Source: Chromohalobacter beijerinckii
Lineage (GTDB): Bacteria; Pseudomonadota; Gammaproteobacteria; Pseudomonadales; Halomonadaceae
Length of the DNA stretch: 64,000 bases
Assembly: GCF_023061185.1 (NCBI RefSeq)
Contig: NZ_JAKGAK010000001.1
Location: forward strand, 372,001-436,000
Direction of reading: 5' to 3'
This document shows positions 33,930 to 62,986 of the stretch, one piece after another. The position numbers and the translations under genes were made by a program. The notes under the pieces are model-generated. The model was given only the letters and a program-made list of their open reading frames with translations. It was not told the origin of the DNA and made no database searches. Position 1 is the first letter of the stretch. The number at the start of each line of letters is the position of its first letter.

Positions 33930-35015
33930 TTATTTGTCGGTGGCTGGCTTGAGTGTTCGCTCAAGCGCATGCCCTCTCTGCTCCAGCCAGCCTTTCACAT
34001 ACAAGCGATGGATAAGCACCATACCCAGCACGACCAGCGGTTCGGCGACCAACACACCTATCAAACCAGCGACCAACCCTAGCCATACCTGCATCACCAA
34101 CAAAAGCCCAGGTGGAATACTCACCGCCTCGCGCTGGATGAGCGGCGTGACCAGGTAACTTTCCAGCGCCTGGATGCCGACATACAGCACGGCCACATGC
34201 AGCATCGCCGTGGAATCGATCGAGAACGCCACCAGCAAGGCAGGAATCGCCGACACCACCGGCCCCAAGTAGGGAATGAGCGATAAAAATGCCGCGAGAA
34301 GGCCGAGCGACAACGCCATGGGAATACCCAGCATCCAGAGGCCAGTGCCGACCAGCACTCCCACGACGGACATCGACGTGAGCCTGCCCAATAGCCACCA
34401 GGCAAGCTTACGCTTGATGACATCCATTAGGTCGGCAGCCCCTTCCCGCCGAGAAGGCGTGATGAGCCGCAACACACCGGCTTTATAAATGGCCGGGTCG
34501 AACGCAATGAACAGCCCAATGAATACCACCACCACTACATTGAGCAATGCTCCCAGCGTGGTCGAGAAAACGGTGGAAACGCGTGCGGACCAGTTGCCCA
34601 GCACATTCTCGGACGACGAATTATCGCTTACTCGTTCGATAAACTGCGATCCCAGCGGCCACTGGCCTATCGTTTGTTTCAAGTCGGCCAGCGAGTTGGG
34701 CAGTGTCTTGGCAAGCTGTTCGAATTGCTGGCTGATACTGAAGGCAAAGTTCACGCTGAAGGCGGCAAACAAGCCAGAAACGACGAACAATACGACCACC
34801 AATGCCCAACGCCGAGAGAGGAAACTGTGACGGCACAACCAGCCTGCCGGCAGCGAAAAGGCCAATGCCAGCAGCAGCCCGACGAAGACCATCAGCAGAA
34901 TTCTGAAACCGAACCAGAGTGCGGCCAATATCGTCATGGTGACAGCGACTATGCCGGCAGCGATCCAGACTTTACGCGCATATTCGCTCATATAGTGGTG
35001 CGTCGGCTCTCCCAC
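33930..35015 (-). CDS. AI-2E/PerM-family permease
   Basis: An integral membrane protein of about 361 residues with about eight helices and the family motifs LLNVVVVVFIGLFIAFDP and LSLIPYLGPVVSAIPALLVA. Members export small molecules such as AI-2 or act as Na+(Li+)/H+ antiporters (UPF0118 in halophiles), so substrate is open. The GTG at 35015 is chosen: AAGGAG lies eight bases upstream, while the GTG at 35024 touches it. An ATG at 34991 is a third option. It is downstream of the HAD gene on the same strand. Confidence 0.85.
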   Translation of the reverse strand: MGEPTHHYMSEYARKVWIAAGIVAVTMTILAALWFGFRILLMVFVGLLLALAFSLPAGWLCRHSFLSRRWALVVVLFVVSGLFAAFSVNFAFSISQQFEQLAKTLPNSLADLKQTIGQWPLGSQFIERVSDNSSSENVLGNWSARVSTVFSTTLGALLNVVVVVFIGLFIAFDPAIYKAGVLRLITPSRREGAADLMDVIKRKLAWWLLGRLTSMSVVGVLVGTGLWMLGIPMALSLGLLAAFLSLIPYLGPVVSAIPALLVAFSIDSTAMLHVAVLYVGIQALESYLVTPLIQREAVSIPPGLLLVMQVWLGLVAGLIGVLVAEPLVVLGMVLIHRLYVKGWLEQRGHALERTLKPATDK

Positions 35016-35056
35016 GAATGACACTCCTTGTCATGCGAATATGAATGAAACTCGGC

Positions 35057-35869
35057 TTACTTGGCGATGACCTTCAACTCGAAAAACTCCTGCAACAGCT
35101 GTGCAACACCGAACGGATGATGGTGACCGATCCGCCTGGCACCGGGTGCGCGTCTCGGCAAATCCGGGTGGGCGTTTTCCACGATGAAGCCGTGGCCGGC
35201 CAACGCCAGCATCTCAGCATCATTGAGGTTGTCGCCGAACGCCAGGCAGCGCGATGCGGGTAGCTCCAGATGCGTCAACAGACGCTCCAGCGTGGCGCCC
35301 TTATTGACACCTTCCGCCATGATTTCCAGTGAGTGGGCCATCGAATAGGTCACATGTACCCGTGTGCCCAGCGCCTCGTTGATGCTCTGTTCCAACGACG
35401 CCAGCGCGACGGGATCGCCGATGCACAGCACCTTGCCCACCCCATTGCCATCGTGCGCCTCGAGGTCGGCGACGCGGTAGTGGAACCCGGTATGCGCGTG
35501 CAAGGCCTTCAACTCCGGCGCCGACGCATCGATCAACCACTCGTCGCCGGTATACAGATTGAGCCGAATATCAGCATCGCGTGGCAGCTCGACCAACGCT
35601 CGCACCAGCTCCGCCGGCACCCACTGTTCGGCGATCAAGCTATCGTCGGGCGCGTAGAGATGTGCCCCATTGGTGCTCAATATATAGGCGGGCACGCCCA
35701 GTCGGCGGCGGAACGCCGTGATATCGTGAAAGTGGCGACCCGATGCCAGCGCCAGATGATGGCCCTCGGCGGCCAAGGCCTGAAAGGTCTCGATGGTCAA
35801 TTCATCGAGATCGTGCTCGGCATTGAGCAGTGTGTTATCCAGATCCGTGACAATCAGATGAGGCTGCAT
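35057..35869 (-). CDS. Cof-type HAD-superfamily phosphatase
   Basis: A 270-aa HAD hydrolase, class IIB (Cof): motif I DLDNTLL (residues 9-15), motif II ASGRHF, and motif III/IV GDNLNDAEMLALAG. Such enzymes dephosphorylate sugar phosphates or flavin precursors. Its first 11 codons and upstream DNA lie in an 82-bp repeat whose second copy is 2.4 kb away. It stands 41 bases before the AI-2E-family gene. Confidence 0.92.
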   Translation of the reverse strand: MQPHLIVTDLDNTLLNAEHDLDELTIETFQALAAEGHHLALASGRHFHDITAFRRRLGVPAYILSTNGAHLYAPDDSLIAEQWVPAELVRALVELPRDADIRLNLYTGDEWLIDASAPELKALHAHTGFHYRVADLEAHDGNGVGKVLCIGDPVALASLEQSINEALGTRVHVTYSMAHSLEIMAEGVNKGATLERLLTHLELPASRCLAFGDNLNDAEMLALAGHGFIVENAHPDLPRRAPGARRIGHHHPFGVAQLLQEFFELKVIAK

Positions 35870-35917
35870 GCGGCTTCCCGGTTGGTTCTCGACACCCCAA
35901 GGTTACCGCATATCGGC
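35836..35917. repeat. 82-bp direct repeat, copy A (5' end of HAD gene and its upstream region)
   Basis: Matches 38242-38323 at 80 of 82 bases (differences in the fourth codon of the HAD gene and in the leader). It covers the first codons of the HAD gene and 48 bases upstream. The two copies flank 2324 bases that hold a metallopeptidase, a chalcone-isomerase-like gene and a broken gene end. Confidence 0.93.
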
Positions 35918-36062
35918 CTGAAGTTGGGGACTGGCGTTAGCGCCACGTACTGTTGGTCAAGGTGCATCTCACAACAGGACAGCCCCATATGCAGAACGCG
36001 CGATATCGACGACTCCAACGCCAGTGTGGCCGATCATTCCGTGCTTTGTCCTTGAGTCGCCC

Positions 36063-36115
36063 AACTGTTCAGCATTTTCTTCGTGCGGAGCATGGCGGAT
36101 AAATGCTGAACAGTT
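36063..36115. repeat. 15-bp inverted repeat downstream of the metallopeptidase
   Basis: AACTGTTCAGCATTT (36063-36077) and its exact reverse complement (36101-36115) are separated by 23 bases, ending seven bases from the peptidase stop. There is no U tract. It could be a terminator or protective hairpin, or the trace of an insertion end. Confidence 0.6.
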
Positions 36116-36121
36116 AAATGC

Positions 36122-37384
36122 CTAGAGAGAGCTATTCTCATCACCTTCATCGGGCTTGGCCGAGCCTTGGTGCTCCAGCGGCGTGGCCCGGTCGAGACGC
36201 GGATGGTTGTCGAGAAACTCGCGGTGCGGGTCGTCGAGGGCGTCCAGCGCCTGGAGGGTGTACGTCAGCGCATGGATCGCCGCCAGCACGTCCTGAGTAT
36301 TGCCGGTCTCGGAGATGGTGTGCATGTTGCGGATCGGGAAGCCGATCGAGGTGGCAGCGCAATCCACCGCGGCCAACACGCCGGCCATGCCGTCGGTGCC
36401 GGTGTCGACGCCGACCATGTCACGCTGCATCGGAATGTCGTGCTGTTTGGCGGCGCTCTCGATGATCCGGTTGAGCTGCTCGCTGGCGATCGCGCCCACC
36501 GCCATGGTGAAGCCCTTGCCCATTTCCAGCGGCTGCATGCGTCGGTCGCCGATACCGGGTGCCGCCACGTAGTCGTGATTGACGTCGACGCCGATCAGTA
36601 CGTCCGGTTCGAGCTCCCCGGCCAGCACACGGCTGCCGAAGCGGCCGATCTCCTCGTAGCTGGCAATGGCGAACATTACGCGCACCTGCCGGGTGCCGCC
36701 CGCCTCGGCGATCAGTCGTGCGACCTCGCTGGTGACGAAGCAACCCAGGCCGTTGTCGAGGTAGGCGCCGTAGAAGGTGTCGGGGCTGAAACCGGAGCGG
36801 ATGGGACGATCCATGATGATCGAATCGCCGGGGCGCACGCCCAGATTCAATACCTGCTGCTTCTTGTTCTCGCCATGGATCTGCAGATCCAGGTAGATCT
36901 GCTCCTTCTTGATGCCCCGGTCGCCCGAACGCACCGCCGGGTCGGCGAAATGAATGGCGCCCAGCGCCTCCACCGTACCGCCCTGGATCACCCGGTAGCT
37001 GCCGGGATTGTCGGGGTCTTCGCTGAACAGCTTGACCTCGTGGCCAATCAGCACCGTGGGCAGGAAGGAGTCGGTATTGATCCAGATCTTGCCGTCGTCG
37101 CCGATCGAGCGCACCTGCATGCGAATCTTGTCGGCGTGGCCGATCAGCATCACCTTGAACATGTCGTCGCGGCCGGGATGGGTATCCAGCACCACGCCGG
37201 CGTGGCCCTGGTACTGATGAAGCTGCCAATCGCTCGGCGCGAACGACTCGAACTGCGGCTTGAGCACGCCGTAAGTCATCGCACCTTCCAGCCCCACCGG
37301 GCTGGGCGCATCGAGGATCTCGCGCATCAGCTTGAACTGCTGCTCCGGCATGGGCCGGTTCCAAGGTTGATTCGTCTCGCTCAT
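36122..37384 (-). CDS. M42/M20-like zinc aminopeptidase (osmoprotectant/peptide hydrolase type)
   Basis: A 420-aa metallopeptidase with metal and catalytic motifs: GHADKIRMQ (His and Asp), GAYLDNGLGCF (bridging Asp), SYEEIGRFGS (Glu-Glu), GVDVNHDYVA and FPIRNMHTISE (His). The order is that of M42 glutamyl aminopeptidases in the M28/M20 clan. Cytosolic, substrate unknown. The ATG at 37384 (MSETNQPW) is chosen. The gene lies between the two copies of the 82-bp repeat and uses an even higher share of G/C-ending codons than its neighbours, which may point to separate origin. Confidence 0.82.
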   Translation of the reverse strand: MSETNQPWNRPMPEQQFKLMREILDAPSPVGLEGAMTYGVLKPQFESFAPSDWQLHQYQGHAGVVLDTHPGRDDMFKVMLIGHADKIRMQVRSIGDDGKIWINTDSFLPTVLIGHEVKLFSEDPDNPGSYRVIQGGTVEALGAIHFADPAVRSGDRGIKKEQIYLDLQIHGENKKQQVLNLGVRPGDSIIMDRPIRSGFSPDTFYGAYLDNGLGCFVTSEVARLIAEAGGTRQVRVMFAIASYEEIGRFGSRVLAGELEPDVLIGVDVNHDYVAAPGIGDRRMQPLEMGKGFTMAVGAIASEQLNRIIESAAKQHDIPMQRDMVGVDTGTDGMAGVLAAVDCAATSIGFPIRNMHTISETGNTQDVLAAIHALTYTLQALDALDDPHREFLDNHPRLDRATPLEHQGSAKPDEGDENSSL

Positions 37385-37539
37385 TGAGGCTCTCTCTTGC
37401 GGATTCATGGGATATATGAGGCCAGTCTGGCAGATTTCAGGCCACTAACTGAAGCCAAACATCACGAGGCTCTGCACGACACTGCGGCGTCATGGGCGTG
37501 GGCGTCTACGCGTCCGTTCGGCTCCAGGCATCTGCCACG

Positions 37540-38115
37540 TCAGTCCGTTCGTGAGAGCAGCGCGGCACGCAGCTCTTCCGACAACGGTGGCTCGGCCAGC
37601 CAGATACCGAAGTAGGCACGCGCCAGCTCAACGTCATCCGACTCGAAGCGCTTATCACCGTTCAGACTCAGGCTCAGTCGTGGCACGTCTGGATTCCAGT
37701 CAAGCCGATAGCGGTCACCATCAGTGGCATCGGTCATTGCATTCTGGATCGCCTCTATCTTGGGGCGAATCGCCTCGCGTGCCTTCACCGCGTACTGTTT
37801 GTCCAGAGTGGCCCAAGTCGCCTCGAGAATATCCGCCACGTCCACATCGCGCCGATACTCGAGAAGCAGACTCATCGGCATCTCGGCGTTGATGATGGCA
37901 TCCTGGCTAGCATTAGCCGGTGCATAAAGAGCCGCGTCATATACATCCCAGAACATATAACTGGCAGTGCCTGCCCCTTGCAAAACGAGTTCAGTCCCAT
38001 CCAGTGACTTTTCAGCCGCAAACGACGCCGCGAGGGCTGAACTACCGCCCCAACCAATCATGACTGCCAGTCCCAACCCTTGGACGAGGCCGGTTAAAGC
38101 AGCGCGCACCGTCAT
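37540..38115 (-). CDS. Chalcone-isomerase-like periplasmic protein
   Basis: A 191-aa protein with a signal peptide (about residues 1-29, SSALAASF) and the bacterial chalcone isomerase-like domain: LVLQGAGTASYMFWDVYDAALY, LEYRRDVDVADILEATW and FNGD-like LSLNGDKRFESDDVELARAYFGIWL. Bacterial members lack known isomerase activity. They usually sit in a cluster with DUF3833, DUF2878, DUF1365 and a cyclopropane-fatty-acid synthase. Here the upstream DUF3833 gene is only a stump, with which it shares an ATGA overlap. Confidence 0.82.
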   Translation of the reverse strand: MTVRAALTGLVQGLGLAVMIGWGGSSALAASFAAEKSLDGTELVLQGAGTASYMFWDVYDAALYAPANASQDAIINAEMPMSLLLEYRRDVDVADILEATWATLDKQYAVKAREAIRPKIEAIQNAMTDATDGDRYRLDWNPDVPRLSLSLNGDKRFESDDVELARAYFGIWLAEPPLSEELRAALLSRTD

Positions 38116-38241
38116 GACGAACCTCCGTCTGGATTAGACTGGGTGAAAAACAGCGTAACCTCTCCAACCTGGATACCGAATTTCGTCACGGTCGCCCGGT
38201 GAATCACCACATCCTCGCTCTGACAGATCATCCAGTCATCA
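38112..38241 (-). pseudogene. C-terminal remnant of a DUF3833 lipoprotein gene
   Basis: The frame encodes about 43 residues (DDWMICQSEDVVIHRATVTK, then FGIQVGEVTLFF) that I recognise as the end of DUF3833 proteins, followed by an ATGA overlap with the chalcone-isomerase-like gene. Upstream of 38241 the sequence changes abruptly into the 82-bp repeat of the HAD gene, so the N-terminal part with its lipobox is lost. The family call is from memory of the C-terminal pattern and the usual neighbour. Confidence 0.6.
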
Positions 38242-38275
38242 TATCCAGATCCGTGACAATCAGATGTGGCTGCAT
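38228..38275 (-). pseudogene. 15-codon remnant of the HAD phosphatase gene
   Basis: In copy B of the repeat the HAD start codon and first eleven codons (MQPHLIVTDLD) are kept. The frame then runs into the DUF3833 stump and stops after four more codons. The promoter-proximal DNA is intact, so the stub may still be transcribed into the chalcone-isomerase-like gene. Confidence 0.75.
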
Positions 38276-38323
38276 GCGGCTTCCCAGTTGGTTCTCGACA
38301 CCCCAAGGTTACCGCATATCGGC
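38242..38323. repeat. 82-bp direct repeat, copy B
   Basis: Second copy of 35836-35917, same orientation, two mismatches. On its left the DUF3833 remnant begins; on its right lies the leader of the O-methyltransferase gene. It marks a recombination junction. Confidence 0.93.
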
Positions 38324-38465
38324 GCGCCTCGCGTCGCCTGGAAAAGATGTACAGGCACAGTGAATCAAGCCGGTTTGTATTACCATGGCCTGTCGTACCG
38401 ATGATCATCCTCTAAACCTGCACTACTCGCTCATCGTAGGTGGGCGGCTTCTCCAAGGAGACTTC

Positions 38466-39089
38466 ATGGCTAACTTCGACCCCCGGCTCGATATGAACGA
38501 TGCCATGCGGCATGCTCTCGGCCTCTATCACCAGCGTATCGAAGAGGAAAAGCAAGGAAATGGTGGCCCACATCGCCATATGGCGGTAGGGCCAGCAGCC
38601 GGTCGTTTCATCAACTTGCTGGCCAGCAGCCTCGACGCACCGCACATTCTCGAGTTGGGCACTTCTCTAGGCTACTCGACGCTCTGGCTCGCCGATGCCG
38701 CCCGCGCTACGGGCGGCCGAGTGACCACGATCGAATTGGAAGCAGAAAAATCTGCGATTGCCAAGGAAATGGCCGAAGGCGCGGGGCTCGTCGAGTGGGT
38801 CGATTACCAAGTGGGAGATGCCCTGGCCTTGATCGACGGCCTCGACGGGCCCTTCGACTTCGTGCTCGTCGACCATTGGAAGGACCTCTATCTCCCGAGT
38901 TTCGAGGCCTTTCGCGACAAGCTCGCTCCCGGCGCCATCCTGGTGGCCGACAACATGATCCGTGGCGGCGGTGGCGATAGCAGCGGCCAGGCAGAATACG
39001 CTGCCGCCGTCCGCGCCATGCCGGGCATGACGAGCGTGTTGCTGCCGGTGGGCTCAGGGCTGGAAGTCAGCCGCTACGAACCTGCCTAG
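38466..39089 (+). CDS. SAM-dependent O-methyltransferase (family 3-like)
   Basis: A 207-aa class I methyltransferase: SAM-binding ILELGTSLGYSTLWLADAA (residues about 60-80), acidic TIELEAEK, then DFVLVDHWKDLYLPSFEAF and LVADNMIRGGGG, as in small-molecule O-methyltransferases. The ATG at 38466 is chosen because AAGGAG lies six bases before; the open frame upstream runs into the repeat. It is followed by a dienelactone hydrolase on the same strand (65 bases). The substrate is unknown. Confidence 0.88.
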   Translation: MANFDPRLDMNDAMRHALGLYHQRIEEEKQGNGGPHRHMAVGPAAGRFINLLASSLDAPHILELGTSLGYSTLWLADAARATGGRVTTIELEAEKSAIAKEMAEGAGLVEWVDYQVGDALALIDGLDGPFDFVLVDHWKDLYLPSFEAFRDKLAPGAILVADNMIRGGGGDSSGQAEYAAAVRAMPGMTSVLLPVGSGLEVSRYEPA

Positions 39090-39154
39090 GCAGCGAAACA
39101 GGGCCCGTCGCCCTTGACGACATCCATTCGCCATCGACAACCCGGAGCTCATCC

Positions 39155-39895
39155 ATGTCTCGTGCTATCGAAATCCCCGCCGCAGACGGCACTATCGACG
39201 CGCATATCTTCATGCCCAATAACGCCGACGGCCCTCTACCGGCCGTGGTACTGTTCACCGATATCGGCGGCCTGCGCCCCTGCTATCACGAGAAGGCTCA
39301 GCGAATCGCCGATGACGGCTATGCCGTGTTGATGCCCAATGTCTACTACCGCGATGCAAACGGACACATCGTCCCGGAGGGCAAGTCCTTCCGCGATCCG
39401 GATGTGCGCCCGACGCTGCTCGAATATGCCGGCCATCTCACTCCCGAGGCACAGTCCCGCGACTTCGCCGCCCTGCTGAACTGCATCGACAATGAGCCCG
39501 AGTTCGGGGGCGGCAAGATCGGCGTGGTCGGCTATTGCATGACCGGCGCCTTCGCGCTGCGCATGGCGGCCGAACATGCCAATCGCGTGGCTGCTGCAGC
39601 CGGTTTCCATTCGGCGCGACTGGCCGAGGCAGACGACCCGAACAGCCCTGTGAACGTCGTCGGCAATATCGAAGGGCGCGTCTATTTCGGCCACGCCGAC
39701 AAAGACGAACTGCTGCCCCCAGAGCAGATCGCTCGCCTGGACGAAGCCCTCGCCACCGCCGGCGTGCACTTCACCACCGAGCTCTACAAAGGCGCGGCCC
39801 ATGGCTTCACGGCCAAGGACGCCCCTTCCTACGACGCAGCCGCCGATGACCTGCACCACAAGCGACTGGCCCTACTTCTGGAAGAGACGCTGTAG
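39155..39895 (+). CDS. Dienelactone hydrolase family protein
   Basis: A 246-aa alpha/beta hydrolase with Cys nucleophile in GYCMTGAFAL, acid in YFGHADKDELLP and His in GAAHGFT, the Cys-His-Asp triad of dienelactone hydrolases. Cytosolic. No chlorocatechol genes are nearby, so the natural substrate is probably not a dienelactone. It may be an operon with the O-methyltransferase. Confidence 0.9.
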   Translation: MSRAIEIPAADGTIDAHIFMPNNADGPLPAVVLFTDIGGLRPCYHEKAQRIADDGYAVLMPNVYYRDANGHIVPEGKSFRDPDVRPTLLEYAGHLTPEAQSRDFAALLNCIDNEPEFGGGKIGVVGYCMTGAFALRMAAEHANRVAAAAGFHSARLAEADDPNSPVNVVGNIEGRVYFGHADKDELLPPEQIARLDEALATAGVHFTTELYKGAAHGFTAKDAPSYDAAADDLHHKRLALLLEETL

Positions 39896-40055: not shown

Positions 40056-41051
40056 TTACTCCGTTGCCGTCACTTTTCGATTTCCATAATTGATAGGCAC
40101 CCACTCATAGCCCTCTCCGACCTTGCGAATATGACCGATGCCAGGGAACGGCATATGCGGCACGGCCACCAAGTCCCGATGCTTGGCAAAGTCGGCGAAG
40201 GCTGCTGTGCGGACTTTCCTCGCTTTCTTCTGATCGACGTCATAGGCAATCGTCACGGACGGATCAGGGAGTTGAACAGCCGCTACATGAACGATGTCGC
40301 CGGTGAAGGTAAGGGTCTGACCCTCGCTTTCCAATGTGAAGAATGCACTGCCCGACGTATGCCCCGGATGAAGGGAGGCGGTCAAGCCTGGCAGTACTTC
40401 GGTAGTTTTATCGAAGGTGTCGATCTTCCCGGCTTTGACATAGGGTTCGAGGATCGTTTCAGCCTGGTCAAAGTAATGCTGATCGTAGTTGGCCTGTTCT
40501 GCATTTTGAGGATCCAGGAAAAAGTCGACATCCGGTTTACCAACATGGACCATCGCATTGGGAAAAACGCGCTGGCCATCACGAGTTAGTCCGCCCATAT
40601 GGTCGGAATGGACGTGGGTGAGTAAGACATCCGTGATCTGTTCGGGTTTTACGCCGGCCGCCTGCAAGCTCTCGATCAGCTGACCACCGAGTTTTGAACC
40701 GAAGAGTTGACCTACGCCGGTATCAACGAGGACAAGCTTGTCCCCTAGCTCTAGCAAAAATGCATTGATGGAAACCTCGACGGGATTGGTCAGGTACGCC
40801 TGCGCCAAGCGTTCGTCGATCTCCTTGTTGGTGATGCCGTGCAGAATCTTGTGAAGGTTCTGCGGTACGCTGCCGTCGGAGAGAGCCGTTACCCGGACGC
40901 TGCCAATAGTGAAGGCATAAGTATCGGCGCCTTCATCCTGTTGGGCGATCCCCGGGGAGTGATTCAGAGTGGCGGTAGTGGCTGCAGAGACGGGTCCTGC
41001 GGCTGAAAGACCCAGCAGTAGGGTGGAAAGTATGAGTGAACGTATCATCAT
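40056..41051 (-). CDS. Secreted metallo-beta-lactamase-fold hydrolase
   Basis: A 331-aa MBL-fold protein with a signal peptide (about 1-23, GPVSAAT) and the zinc motif THVHSDHMGG (His146, His148, Asp150, His151), a further His in LHPGHTSGSAF, and Asp in TFTGDIVH. This resembles quorum-quenching lactonases or related periplasmic hydrolases; the substrate is not defined. It is divergent from a LysR gene, with a LysR-type dyad in the 154-base gap, so it is probably its target. Confidence 0.88.
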   Translation of the reverse strand: MMIRSLILSTLLLGLSAAGPVSAATTATLNHSPGIAQQDEGADTYAFTIGSVRVTALSDGSVPQNLHKILHGITNKEIDERLAQAYLTNPVEVSINAFLLELGDKLVLVDTGVGQLFGSKLGGQLIESLQAAGVKPEQITDVLLTHVHSDHMGGLTRDGQRVFPNAMVHVGKPDVDFFLDPQNAEQANYDQHYFDQAETILEPYVKAGKIDTFDKTTEVLPGLTASLHPGHTSGSAFFTLESEGQTLTFTGDIVHVAAVQLPDPSVTIAYDVDQKKARKVRTAAFADFAKHRDLVAVPHMPFPGIGHIRKVGEGYEWVPINYGNRKVTATE

Positions 41052-41127
41052 GAGTCTGTCTTCCTGTTTCAGGTAGGTGTCAGAGACAGATCATAGGGGC
41101 CGGCGGGTCTAGCGAGAAAACGATGCC

Positions 41128-41146
41128 GGTTATACCTTGCATAACC
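41128..41146. promoter_or_regulatory. LysR-type binding site between MBL-fold gene and its regulator
   Basis: GGTTAT and ATAACC form a perfect dyad with seven bases between and contain the T-N11-A pattern of LysR operators. It lies in the divergent promoter region. Confidence 0.7.
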
Positions 41147-41205
41147 CTCACGAATACTCATGCCCACGCTCGAAGTGAGCGAGGCTCCACAAAAGACGTG
41201 CTTTC

Positions 41206-42141
41206 ATGCCCGACCGTTTGAATGATATCGATATTGGTCTGTTGATGGCCTTCGAAGCCCTGATCCAGGAGCGCAACGTCAGCCGCGCCGCAGATCGTCT
41301 AGGAATCAGTCAGCCGGCCCTTTCAGGGCGATTGACCCGTCTGCGGGCATTGTTCGGCGATCAGCTTTTCGTACCGGTGGCGGGTCGGGGTGTCATGCCA
41401 ACGCCACGTGCCCAAGCATTGGGCGAGACATTGCCCCGGCTCTTGGGGCACCTGCGCGAGTTCATCGGGCATTCTCCCCATTTCGATCCGTCAGAGAGCG
41501 ACCGGACGTTCGTGCTGGCAGCTTACGATAACCCTGCCGTCATGATTGGCCCCGACCTTGTTACGGCCTTGAAGCGAGTGGCGCCCCATGCCCGGATTAC
41601 GTTCGTGTTGCCGGATCCCGAAACGATCACCCCGGCACTTGATCGCGGGGACGTGGATATGGTCATCGGACTGCCCCGTACGGCAGACGAGGGCCTGATT
41701 GGCCGGACACTGTTTTCCGATCAGTTCGTCACGGCACAGCGCCGGGGCCATCCACGGGGAAGTCAGCCGGTCACGCTGGACGAGTTTTGCGCCGCTGAGC
41801 ATGTAGTGGTGTCGAGCGAGGGCGGGGGCTACGCGGGGCCGGTGGATCGTGCATTGGAGGCGCTGGGTCGGAAACGGCAGGTTAGTCTATCGGTCCAGAG
41901 TTATGCCCTAGCGCCGATTGTCATGGCGGACAGCGATCACCTGTGTACGTTGCCCGGCCGCTTTCTCCAGCGCTTTGAATCCATGTTGGACCTGTTCACG
42001 CCACCGATGGAGATGGATTCATTTGAGCTTTATGCGCTTTGGCATCCACGCATGCGGGACGATCCAGCTCATCGGTGGTTTCGCGACCTGGTCGTTGAAG
42101 TCAGCGAGGGCATGAGCGATCGTTCCGCGACAAGATGCTAA
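41206..42141 (+). CDS. LysR-family regulator, divergent from MBL-fold hydrolase
   Basis: A 311-aa LysR protein with N-terminal HTH (MAFEALIQERNVSRAADRLG, SQPALSGRLTRLRALFGDQL) in the NodD/SyrM-like style with FVPVAGRGVMPTPRA, and a periplasmic-binding-like effector domain (about 95-300). It probably controls the divergent MBL-fold gene and itself through the dyad at 41128-41146. The effector is unknown. Confidence 0.9.
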   Translation: MPDRLNDIDIGLLMAFEALIQERNVSRAADRLGISQPALSGRLTRLRALFGDQLFVPVAGRGVMPTPRAQALGETLPRLLGHLREFIGHSPHFDPSESDRTFVLAAYDNPAVMIGPDLVTALKRVAPHARITFVLPDPETITPALDRGDVDMVIGLPRTADEGLIGRTLFSDQFVTAQRRGHPRGSQPVTLDEFCAAEHVVVSSEGGGYAGPVDRALEALGRKRQVSLSVQSYALAPIVMADSDHLCTLPGRFLQRFESMLDLFTPPMEMDSFELYALWHPRMRDDPAHRWFRDLVVEVSEGMSDRSATRC

Positions 42142-42230
42142 CCATACACTTAGGGGCATTTCTTGCCGGGTGGCGACGCCATCGATGCCGTAGAAACATG
42201 CCTTGTACTCGTATGTGGCAAGTAGCTGTG

Positions 42231-42252
42231 AAAAGGCCCCAATGGTGGGGCC
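42231..42252 (-). terminator. Intrinsic terminator of the alpha/beta hydrolase gene
   Basis: GGCCCCA and TGGGGCC pair with a four-base loop; on the minus strand the stem is followed by TTTT. It lies 20 bases after the hydrolase stop. Confidence 0.8.
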
Positions 42253-42272
42253 AGGCACGAATAGTATGCGTA

Positions 42273-43055
42273 TTATCCTCGATGTTCGTTTAGCCACCGC
42301 TGTATATGCCCTGCGACTTCCACTGGCGCTTCCAGCGGCAGCAAGTGGCCGATGCCCGCCAGTTCATGTGTTTCCGGGGTCGGTAGAAAGGGCACGAGCC
42401 GGTCGGCGAGCACGGCTGGAGGATCGACACGGTCGCACTCACCGATCAACAGCAGCGTCGGCACATCGATGCATCGTGTCGTTTCGCTGATATCTTCGAG
42501 CATCGCCACTGCCGGCCAGGCGGTCTTGGCCGCCGGATCGCCGGCCAAACTGTCGGCAATGGCGCGTTCGCGCACCATCCCGGCGAGCGGCGTCTCCGTG
42601 AGCACATGATCGAGTGTCTCTTCGACACTCGCGCGGCTGTCATAGGCCGATTGCATAGCAAGACGCTGAGGCTCCGGAACATCCATTGGCAGGGCCGGAG
42701 ACGATGCCACCAGCACCAGCTCCTTCAGCCAGGCCGGCCGCTGGCCCGCGAGATACTGGGCAATCTTGCCACCCATGGAATGACCGACCAGTACGACATC
42801 ACGGAGCTGACGTGCTTCGATCATCCCGCCAACCGCCTCGGCCAGATCCGCAATCCGATATCCACTGCGCGACGGGCCAGACTGACCCCAGCCTGGCAGA
42901 TCCGGCATGAGGCACAGGTTCCGCTCCCCAAGTGCCGCCGCTACGTCCATCCATGTGCGGCCAGAACCGCCCCAGTAGTGAAGAAACACGAGCGTGCGCT
43001 GCCCAGCGCCATGCTCCGCGACGTGAAGAACGGCGTTGTCTGTTTCGATCGTCAT
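42273..43055 (-). CDS. Alpha/beta-fold hydrolase
   Basis: A 260-aa hydrolase with oxyanion region FLHYWGGSGRTW, nucleophile elbow VGHSMGGKIAQ, acid in LLIGECDRVDPP and His in LAGIGHLLPLE. A small serine hydrolase (esterase or haloperoxidase-like); substrate unknown. It is divergent from a second LysR gene with a 111-base gap and is the likely target of that regulator. Confidence 0.9.
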   Translation of the reverse strand: MTIETDNAVLHVAEHGAGQRTLVFLHYWGGSGRTWMDVAAALGERNLCLMPDLPGWGQSGPSRSGYRIADLAEAVGGMIEARQLRDVVLVGHSMGGKIAQYLAGQRPAWLKELVLVASSPALPMDVPEPQRLAMQSAYDSRASVEETLDHVLTETPLAGMVRERAIADSLAGDPAAKTAWPAVAMLEDISETTRCIDVPTLLLIGECDRVDPPAVLADRLVPFLPTPETHELAGIGHLLPLEAPVEVAGHIQRWLNEHRG

Positions 43056-61366: not shown

Positions 61367-62986
61367 TCACACGTCGAGCAAGAAACGCGCGGGATCCTCA
61401 AGCAGTTCCTTGATCGTGACCAGGAACTGCACCGCGTCCTTGCCGTCAATCATGCGGTGATCATAGGAGATGGCGAGATACATCATCGGACGAATCTCGA
61501 CCTTGCCGTCGACGGCCATCGGACGCTCCTGGATCTTGTGCATACCCAGAATAGCGGTCTGTGGCGGATTGATGATCGGTGTCGACAGCAACGAACCGAA
61601 GATACCGCCGTTGGTGATGGTGAAGGTCCCGCCCTGCATGTCTTCGATGCCGAGCTTGCCGTCGCGACCGCGCTTGCCGAAGTCGACGATGCTCTTCTCG
61701 ACATCGGCGAGCTTCATGCTGTCGGTATCACGCAGCACCGGCACGACCAGGCCTCGCGGCGTGGACACGGCAACACCGATGTCCTGATAGCCGTGATAGA
61801 CGATATCGCTGCCGTCGATCGACGCGTTCACGTCGGGGAACCGCTTGAGAGCCTCGGTGCATGCCTTGACGAAGAAGCCCATGAACCCGAGCTTGGTATC
61901 GTGCGCCTTCTGGAAAGTTTCCTTGTACTGACTGCGCAGGTTCATCACCGCGCTCATGTCCACCTCATTATAGGTGGTCAGCATGGCGGCGGTCTGCTGC
62001 GCCTGCACCAGACGCTTGGCGATGGTCTGGCGCAGACGACTCATTGGCACGCGCTGCTCAGGGCGATCACCCTCGACGGCAGGTGCCGGTGCAGCAGCGG
62101 CCTTGACGTCCCCACCAGTGGACTTGGCCTCCTTCTTGGCGGAGCCATCCTTGACGGCTTTTTGCACGTCTTCTTTCAGAACACGGCCGCCCTTGCCGGT
62201 GCCTTCGATCTTGCTGGCGTCCAGATCGTGCTCGGCGACCAGCTTGCGTGCCGCCGGTGCGAGGATCTTGTCGCCGACCTTTTCGTCACTGCCACCACCG
62301 GCGTCTTTCGACTCACTCGCCGTGTCGTCTGATGCGGCAGCCTCGCCCCCCCCCGCATCACCGCCGGCGCCTTCGGCAAACAACGCGAGCACCGCTTCGG
62401 ACTCGACTTGCTCGCCTTCCTGCACCTTGATTTCGCTGAGGGCGCCATCGGCCGGAGCGACAACTTCGAGCACCACCTTGTCGGTCTCGATGTCCGCGAG
62501 GATCTCGTCGCGCTTCACCGCTTCACCGACCTGCTTGTGCCAGGTGGCCACGGTCCCTTCCTGAACGGATTCCGGGAAGCTCGGCGCTTTGACGTCATGC
62601 TGCTTACCAGACGCTGCCGGCTTGGCATCGTCAGACTTGGCCGCTGCCGAATCCTGCTTCTCGCCGGTCTCTTCTTTCTTCGAGTCTTCTTTGTTAGAGC
62701 CCTCAGCGGATTTAGAGCCTTCAGCAGGCTTTTCGCCGCCGCCTTCACTCGCGGCGCCCAGCATCCCAAGCACCTGCTCAGAGTCGCACGTATCGCCTTC
62801 TTCCACTTTGATTTCAGTCACGGTGCCGGCGTCCGGCGCCACGACTTCGAGAACGACCTTGTCCGTCTCGATCTCGACAATCAGCTCATCACGCTCAACG
62901 CTGTCACCGACCTTCTTGTGCCAAGTGGCGATAGTGCCCTCGGCAACGGATTCCGGGAAATTCGGCGCTTTGATCTCAGTAGCCAT
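61367..62986 (-). CDS. sucB: Dihydrolipoamide succinyltransferase (E2o) with two lipoyl domains
   Basis: A 539-aa E2 subunit. It carries two lipoyl domains, with lipoylation lysines Lys43 and Lys170, both in [11 protein letters not shown] or [11 protein letters not shown], separated by a Glu/Lys/Ser/Gly linker. A second acidic linker, a peripheral subunit-binding domain (about 237-272, [15 protein letters not shown]) and the catalytic acyltransferase domain follow, with [13 protein letters not shown] (catalytic His near residue 510). Classical gammaproteobacterial E2o has one lipoyl domain and about 400 residues, so this is an enlarged form. Neighbours sucA and lpd confirm the complex. Confidence 0.95.

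Follow-up and report, generated by a model that had tools for sequence, protein, structure and literature searches.

Direct repeats of a phosphatase gene leader beside an O-methyltransferase gene in Chromohalobacter: a possible scar of an old illegitimate joining

Background

In a 64-kb window of DNA from a Chromohalobacter genome (G000; the window is the whole stretch analysed, and coordinates are window positions), two 82-bp direct repeats, each composed of the 5' end and leader of a gene for a HAD-superfamily phosphatase (HAD), enclose genes for an M42-family peptidase (M42) and a chalcone isomerase-like protein (CHI), with an O-methyltransferase (OMT) gene located just outside. One of the closest described processes, homology-facilitated illegitimate recombination (HFIR), has been reported in Streptococcus pneumoniae, Acinetobacter baylyi and Pseudomonas stutzeri (PMC3240628). 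The introduction of that report describes HFIR junctions as mostly carrying 3-10 bp of microhomology together with a coupled deletion, and the same report, which gives no homology at 3 of its own 4 Escherichia coli junctions, found HFIR to be very rare in E. coli conjugation and unlikely to account for most insertion-deletion loci of that species. In type VI secretion system (T6SS) clusters of Vibrio cholerae, remnants and arrays of displaced genes are attributed to sequential module insertion, and a displacement model has been proposed for immunity gene arrays (PMC5361080).

The Chromohalobacter locus resembles HFIR in that a foreign gene is attached through a non-homologous junction whose microhomology is short or nil, and that most of a resident gene, encoding a DUF3833 protein, has been lost; the shared flank, a gene of the dienelactone hydrolase family (DLH), could represent the homologous end. 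It differs in being deduced from descendants, with no homologous crossover point visible, and in that a gene stub from the same locus sits at its illegitimate end. The likeness to the T6SS clusters lies in a proposed anchor in conserved upstream sequence, the entry of a new module, the displacement of an older gene and the persistence of remnants, whereas the Chromohalobacter remnant consists of a 5' stub and its leader, one or few events are involved and there is no effector-immunity module.

The near-identical 82-bp repeats 2.4 kb apart, together with a one-copy relative (G001) that lacks the intervening DNA, also recall deletion between direct repeats. RecA-dependent deletion between short direct repeats is a known process, and repeats of this length and spacing are a plausible RecA substrate; in the present case, however, a deletion would be deduced from gene arrangements, and G001 may instead hold a progenitor allele. 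We consider it somewhat probable that an old illegitimate joining left the second repeat copy as its scar and that G001 is a later deletion product. The repeat pair occurs in several species of a single genus and can be explained by known processes. No title on it was found among the leading matches in the literature on Chromohalobacter comparative genomics and recombination, which is not a claim that it is unpublished.

Genomes and comparisons

The genus set comprised ten Chromohalobacter genomes (G000-G009) and the family set 121 genomes, 111 of which are from other genera. Besides G000 and G001, the genus set includes C. canadensis 85B (G002), C. israelensis (G003), C. marismortui (G004), C. 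moromii (G005), C. nigrandesensis (G006), C. sarecensis (G007), Chromohalobacter sp. 296-RDG (G008) and Chromohalobacter sp. 11-W (G009). OMT is borne by G000, G001, G002, G005 and G009, all but G001 being two-copy genomes with regard to the repeat, while G003, G004, G006, G007 and G008 are OMT-less. Gene orders were compared at 15 loci (L034-L048) of 24, nine distant HAD relatives (L049-L057, 25-40% identity) being left out. Phylogenetic placement was based on a 52.7-kb tree (52,664 columns from four genome regions) and on four separate regional trees. Trees of rpoB, gyrB, mfd and their concatenation conflict, that of mfd having low support and an odd root, and the concatenation yielding supports of 31 and 33 around G008 and G001. 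The 'dioxygenase' referred to below is a member of the Glyoxalase/dioxygenase superfamily.

The repeat pair and its distribution

A repeat search recovered the pair as the first-pass annotation had described it, with 80 of 82 positions identical (98%) in the same orientation and a spacing of 2406 nt; one other direct-repeat family of 45 nt or more was found in the window (seed 14). The second copy matches at E 2e-34, and no third copy exists in the whole G000 genome. Copy A, correctly recognized as the true start of HAD, consists of the first 11 codons plus one base of that gene and its 48-bp leader. Copy B carries the same start codon and leader, and the apparently unrelated gene end on its left, at what had already been called a recombination junction, is the 3' end of a DUF3833 gene (PF12915); copy B is the copy captured at that junction. 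The flank to the right of copy A is common to the single-copy genomes G004, G006, G007 and G008, that to the right of copy B, within the genus, only to G001. Copies A and B differ at two positions in G000, one in G005, two in G002 and nine in G009.

The repeat unit is present in all ten genus genomes, and twice in four of these. Across the family set it is matched in 18 genomes, namely the ten of the genus and eight others with 35-41 bp, once each; both copies were found in none of the 111 genomes of other genera, most of which lack any match at E up to 0.001. Conservation of both copies in distant relatives, which the first-pass annotation had named as the sign of an old, functional duplication, is half borne out, in species of the genus and not beyond it. 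Since two copies occur in four of ten genomes, the pair is not fresh, and an assembly error, a concern raised by the first-pass annotation, is very unlikely, as the separate assembly of C. moromii has the same junction as G000 and both copies lie well within contigs in all four two-copy genomes.

Gene orders and the relative age of the two sides

With HAD drawn on the left, C. nigrandesensis and C. sarecensis possess the order HAD-leader-M42-CHI-full DUF3833-DLH. The order in C. marismortui is the same up to DUF3833, beyond which a different gene follows; G008 corresponds to C. nigrandesensis with a truncated DUF3833, and C. israelensis has HAD-leader-CHI without M42. G000, G005 and G009 share HAD-leader-M42-CHI-leader-OMT-DLH, and C. 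canadensis (G002) has this two-leader order but retains the dioxygenase and only the last 23 residues of CHI. The order in G001 is HAD-leader-OMT-dioxygenase-DLH, with one leader; M42, CHI and DUF3833 are all missing from its 20-kb stretch, to which the search for the latter two was confined. At E up to 1e-30, M42 is a single-copy gene in eight of the ten genomes and is missing from the whole genomes of G001 and G003. OMT adjoins the leader in each of the five genomes that bear it, and DLH is found at the locus in eight of ten (not G003 and G004). None of M42, CHI, DUF3833 or OMT was detected at E up to 1e-8 at seven HAD loci of other genera (L042-L048) or in G093.

M42 and/or CHI (in C. israelensis CHI only) adjoin the HAD leader in all five OMT-less genomes, and the 52.7-kb tree places these five outside the OMT-bearing group (G008 with an ultrafast bootstrap support, UFBoot, of 94), which argues that the enclosed genes are older neighbours of HAD and not an insert. 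It is thus strongly suggested that the enclosed genes are the older and the OMT side the newer. The first-pass annotation had correctly recognized the enclosed genes, confirmed by Pfam as M42 and Chalcone_3, but its view of them as an inserted segment or circle is not supported, since one or both lie beside the leader in every OMT-less genome; the comparison with relatives that it had proposed points to HAD-leader-M42-CHI-DUF3833 as the older order. Direct repeats around genes do not make those genes the insert, and here the newcomer lies outside the repeats. Weighing against this polarity is the insecure placement of G008, which falls in or beside the OMT-bearing group in three of the four regional trees and in the gyrB tree and may therefore have lost OMT rather than always having been without it; G003 and G004 are clear outgroups.

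At E up to 1e-60, OMT occurs in seven members of the 121-genome family set. In one from another genus (G027), OMT adjoins the same dioxygenase (92% identical protein), and the spacer upstream of OMT can be aligned with its Chromohalobacter counterpart, the alignment beginning 6 (G002) or 13 (G000, G001) bases past the right end of the repeat. Spacer, OMT and dioxygenase-superfamily gene hence co-occur in G027, and OMT was probably imported as a module together with its own upstream DNA. A plasmid origin of OMT was rejected, as matches in 218 plasmid records were all below 60% identity.

Junction forms between DUF3833 and the HAD stub

Three forms of the junction are present among the two-copy genomes. 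The longest HAD stub, of approximately 22 codons, occurs in C. canadensis, where it is joined in frame to DUF3833, the frame now being broken further on; taking G006 or G007 as proxy for the lost DUF3833 sequence gives an exact overlap of 5 nt at this join, taking G004 one of 2 nt. G009 has a shorter stub, joined nearer to CHI with an overlap of 2-4 nt by proxy; it forms an in-frame reading frame of 22 codons, the stop of which overlaps the start of CHI. The third form, common to G000 and G005, has no overlap and one filler base, and its stub frame ends after 15 codons. In the two-copy genomes the junction combines the presence of OMT with the loss of most of DUF3833, i.e., insertion is coupled with loss of resident DNA. 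In G008, DUF3833 has also been cut, with about 42 C-terminal codons left beside CHI and no HAD stub (L028, 7774-7899), from which it follows that DUF3833 has been lost repeatedly while its CHI-overlapping end stays. The DUF3833 remnant of G000 comprises the last 40 or so codons of a gene that is full-length in G004, G006 and G007 (Pfam E 2.9e-67 for the G006 protein).

The simplest reading of these forms is one ancestral stub shortened by separate deletions. Set against it, the G000/G005 form has zero microhomology and a one-base filler, and three separate joins behind the G002, G009 and G000/G005 forms would also fit. A GGTGTTA string in the stubs of G002 and G009 was dropped as a sign of single origin, because the GGTG of G009 may derive from the DUF3833 side.

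Proposed history and competing explanations

From the observed arrangements and junctions we infer a single origin, the mechanism of joining and the direction of change in G001. In an ancestor of the OMT-bearing species with the order HAD-leader-M42-CHI-DUF3833, an OMT(-dioxygenase) module carrying on its left the HAD leader and at least ~22 HAD codons would have been joined illegitimately into the DUF3833 gene. This joining would have removed most of DUF3833 and left a second HAD 5' end, copy B, facing CHI, with later small deletions trimming the stub differently in each species. The two leaders now constitute a direct repeat usable by homologous recombination, and the scar-free HAD-leader-OMT arrangement of G001 is most readily taken as a natural deletion product. 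Known mechanisms suffice for this history, namely illegitimate joining followed, perhaps, by repeat-mediated deletion. The two-copy state itself could have arisen by HFIR between two alleles, by tandem duplication and replacement or by a short templated insertion, between which the data do not separate; the duplication followed by deletion envisaged in the first-pass annotation is one of these routes and is not singled out. On the proposed history the locus is a stepwise fossil of a newcomer gene stitched beside a resident operon, with the older order, the junction, trimmed versions and a possible reversal preserved in sister species.

The reading of G001 as a deletion product is most directly opposed by its being the progenitor, a possible though clearly less favoured explanation, in which M42-CHI-DUF3833 first gave way to the OMT module next to the HAD leader of some lineage and HFIR between the two alleles later produced the two-copy state, one end being homologous and the other joining DUF3833 to HAD. 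It has the merit of explaining HAD stub, leader and OMT as one piece from one donor. G001 shows what recombination between the leaders predicts, i.e., a single copy with clean flanks (the HAD side intact and, on the right, the OMT spacer beginning at the same base) and the intervening genes gone, and deletion between the copies, as originally suggested, is credible for that reason. G001, G002 and G000 group together in the 52.7-kb tree (UFBoot 100), each of the four regional trees gives G001 a two-copy sister species (supports of 100, 64, 99 and 97), the gyrB tree places it with G000 (84), and the OMT+DLH and HAD+OMT+DLH trees place it with G002 (UFBoot 90 and 84, respectively); the nesting in the 52.7-kb and OMT+DLH trees speaks against a progenitor. 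So does the G002 stub, with alignment scores of 104 against the HAD of G001, 128 against that of G000, G002 or G009 and 126 against that of G006. Several observations weigh on the opposite side: the rpoB tree (77) puts G001 outside the four two-copy species, the YcjX+TMp tree leaves it outside their group (99), and an OMT tree rooted on two other genera also excludes it (80), although in the last of these nested topologies are not rejected (approximately unbiased test, AU p 0.085 and 0.264). The locus of G001 is moreover unusually diverged, with identities to G000 of 88.8% in HAD and 89.9% in OMT against a background mean of 95.0% over 87 windows of 600 bp, 6.9% of which are at or below 90%, so that an introgressed older allele would fit. 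Exchange between species is evident, G000 and G009 being 99% identical at 36250-37150 and 85-89% at 37150-37600; the region is a patchwork of exchanged tracts, and G001 may therefore hold such an allele. The differences between copies A and B within 82 bp are too few to reveal gene conversion. The repeat unit is more conserved than the adjoining spacer between G001 and each of the other four OMT-bearing genomes (Fisher p 5e-5 to 0.01), which constraint explains as well. On balance, pop-out is distinctly favoured over a progenitor state for G001.

Copy B may also have originated without a second allele, a suggestion we hold tentatively and which is compatible with pop-out in G001. Either a tandem duplication from the HAD 5' end to the DUF3833 3' end was followed by replacement of the second M42-CHI-DUF3833 by the OMT module, or ~116 bp were copied from the HAD 5' end as a template while the OMT module was being joined. 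The DUF3833-to-HAD join of C. canadensis is the trace expected from tandem duplication or a template switch, but duplication requires one extra event, and no intermediate with two M42 genes is found among the ten genomes. That copy B was kept for supplying the HAD leader and a translation start to CHI, whose DUF3833-side start had been cut off, is unlikely. Its orientation towards CHI, the G009 stub frame and the in-frame join in G002 fit such a role; yet chance alone puts one join in three in frame, the stub frame of G000/G005 ends early, that of G002 is frameshifted with CHI mostly gone, no sigma-70-type sites were found where 1.0 was expected in shuffles, and copy B differs between G000 and G009 at 10 of 83 columns, compared to 12 of 144 in the spacer. 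A recurrent natural switch, in which the M42-CHI cassette is lost through leader recombination (G001 being off) and copy B serves CHI as captured leader and start (on), appears quite improbable. Nothing was found to favour an assembly artefact or the footprint of a mobile element, which we regard as hardly credible given the recurrence of the arrangement inside contigs of separate assemblies. Known target-site duplications of transposons are far shorter than 82 bp, and a transposon or integrase element was rejected, there being only the two repeat copies in the genome, no transposase or integrase family match among nine scanned proteins and nothing matching in the plasmid collection. No swapping of cassettes with the repeats as boundaries was seen, the borders of the high-identity tracts of G000 and G009 falling inside M42 and CHI. 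Within 35000-39200 no Rfam match at gathering scores pointed to an RNA element in the leader, and a simple sigma-70 scan, which leaves room for other promoter types, returned no promoter in the repeat.

Features of the locus

Table 1. Annotated features of the HAD-OMT locus in the window of G000.
Feature	Position	Strand	Evidence
HAD-superfamily phosphatase gene (Hydrolase_3), conserved anchor	35057..35869	-	Pfam E 1.6e-51; in 10/10 Chromohalobacter genomes
Copy A, HAD 5' end and leader, older place	35836..35917	-	Repeat search; flank comparison
M42-family peptidase gene, older HAD neighbour	36122..37408	-	Pfam E 2.8e-39
CHI gene (Chalcone_3)	37540..38115	-	Pfam E 6e-25; tblastn in relatives
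DUF3833 3' remnant (PF12915), overlaps CHI start codon	38112..38240	-	Pfam E 1.2e-9, profile 129-162 of 163
Copy B, HAD 5' stub and leader at recombination junction	38242..38323	-	Repeat search; longer stub in G002
Residual HAD frame of copy B, stop after 15 codons	38228..38275	-	Translation
Spacer upstream of OMT	38324..38465	+	Alignable with G027 spacer
OMT gene (Methyltransf_3), newer gene beside copy B	38466..39089	+	Pfam E 1.5e-19
DLH family gene, right side of both arrangements	39155..39895	+	Pfam E 1.9e-44

The frame of the DUF3833 remnant stays open through copy B, giving a predicted 98-codon open reading frame (38112-38408, minus strand) in G000 and G005. To the left of HAD, an AI-2E family transporter gene (33930-35024) is present in G000, G001, G002 and G004 and not at the locus in the other six genomes; it is 99.9% identical between G000 and G002, compared to 92-97% for neighbouring genes, and represents a second presence/absence exchange at the locus. 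To the right of DLH, a block encoding a metallo-beta-lactamase-fold protein, a LysR protein and an alpha/beta hydrolase (40056-43055) occurs at this position only in G000, G009 and G007, with a fragment of the third gene in G006. Its first two genes are 96-98% identical at the DNA level and the adjoining DLH only 87-93%, so that the block was likely exchanged between species. Elsewhere in the window, 62374-62978 contains two direct copies of 224 nt that are 72% identical and 381 nt apart.

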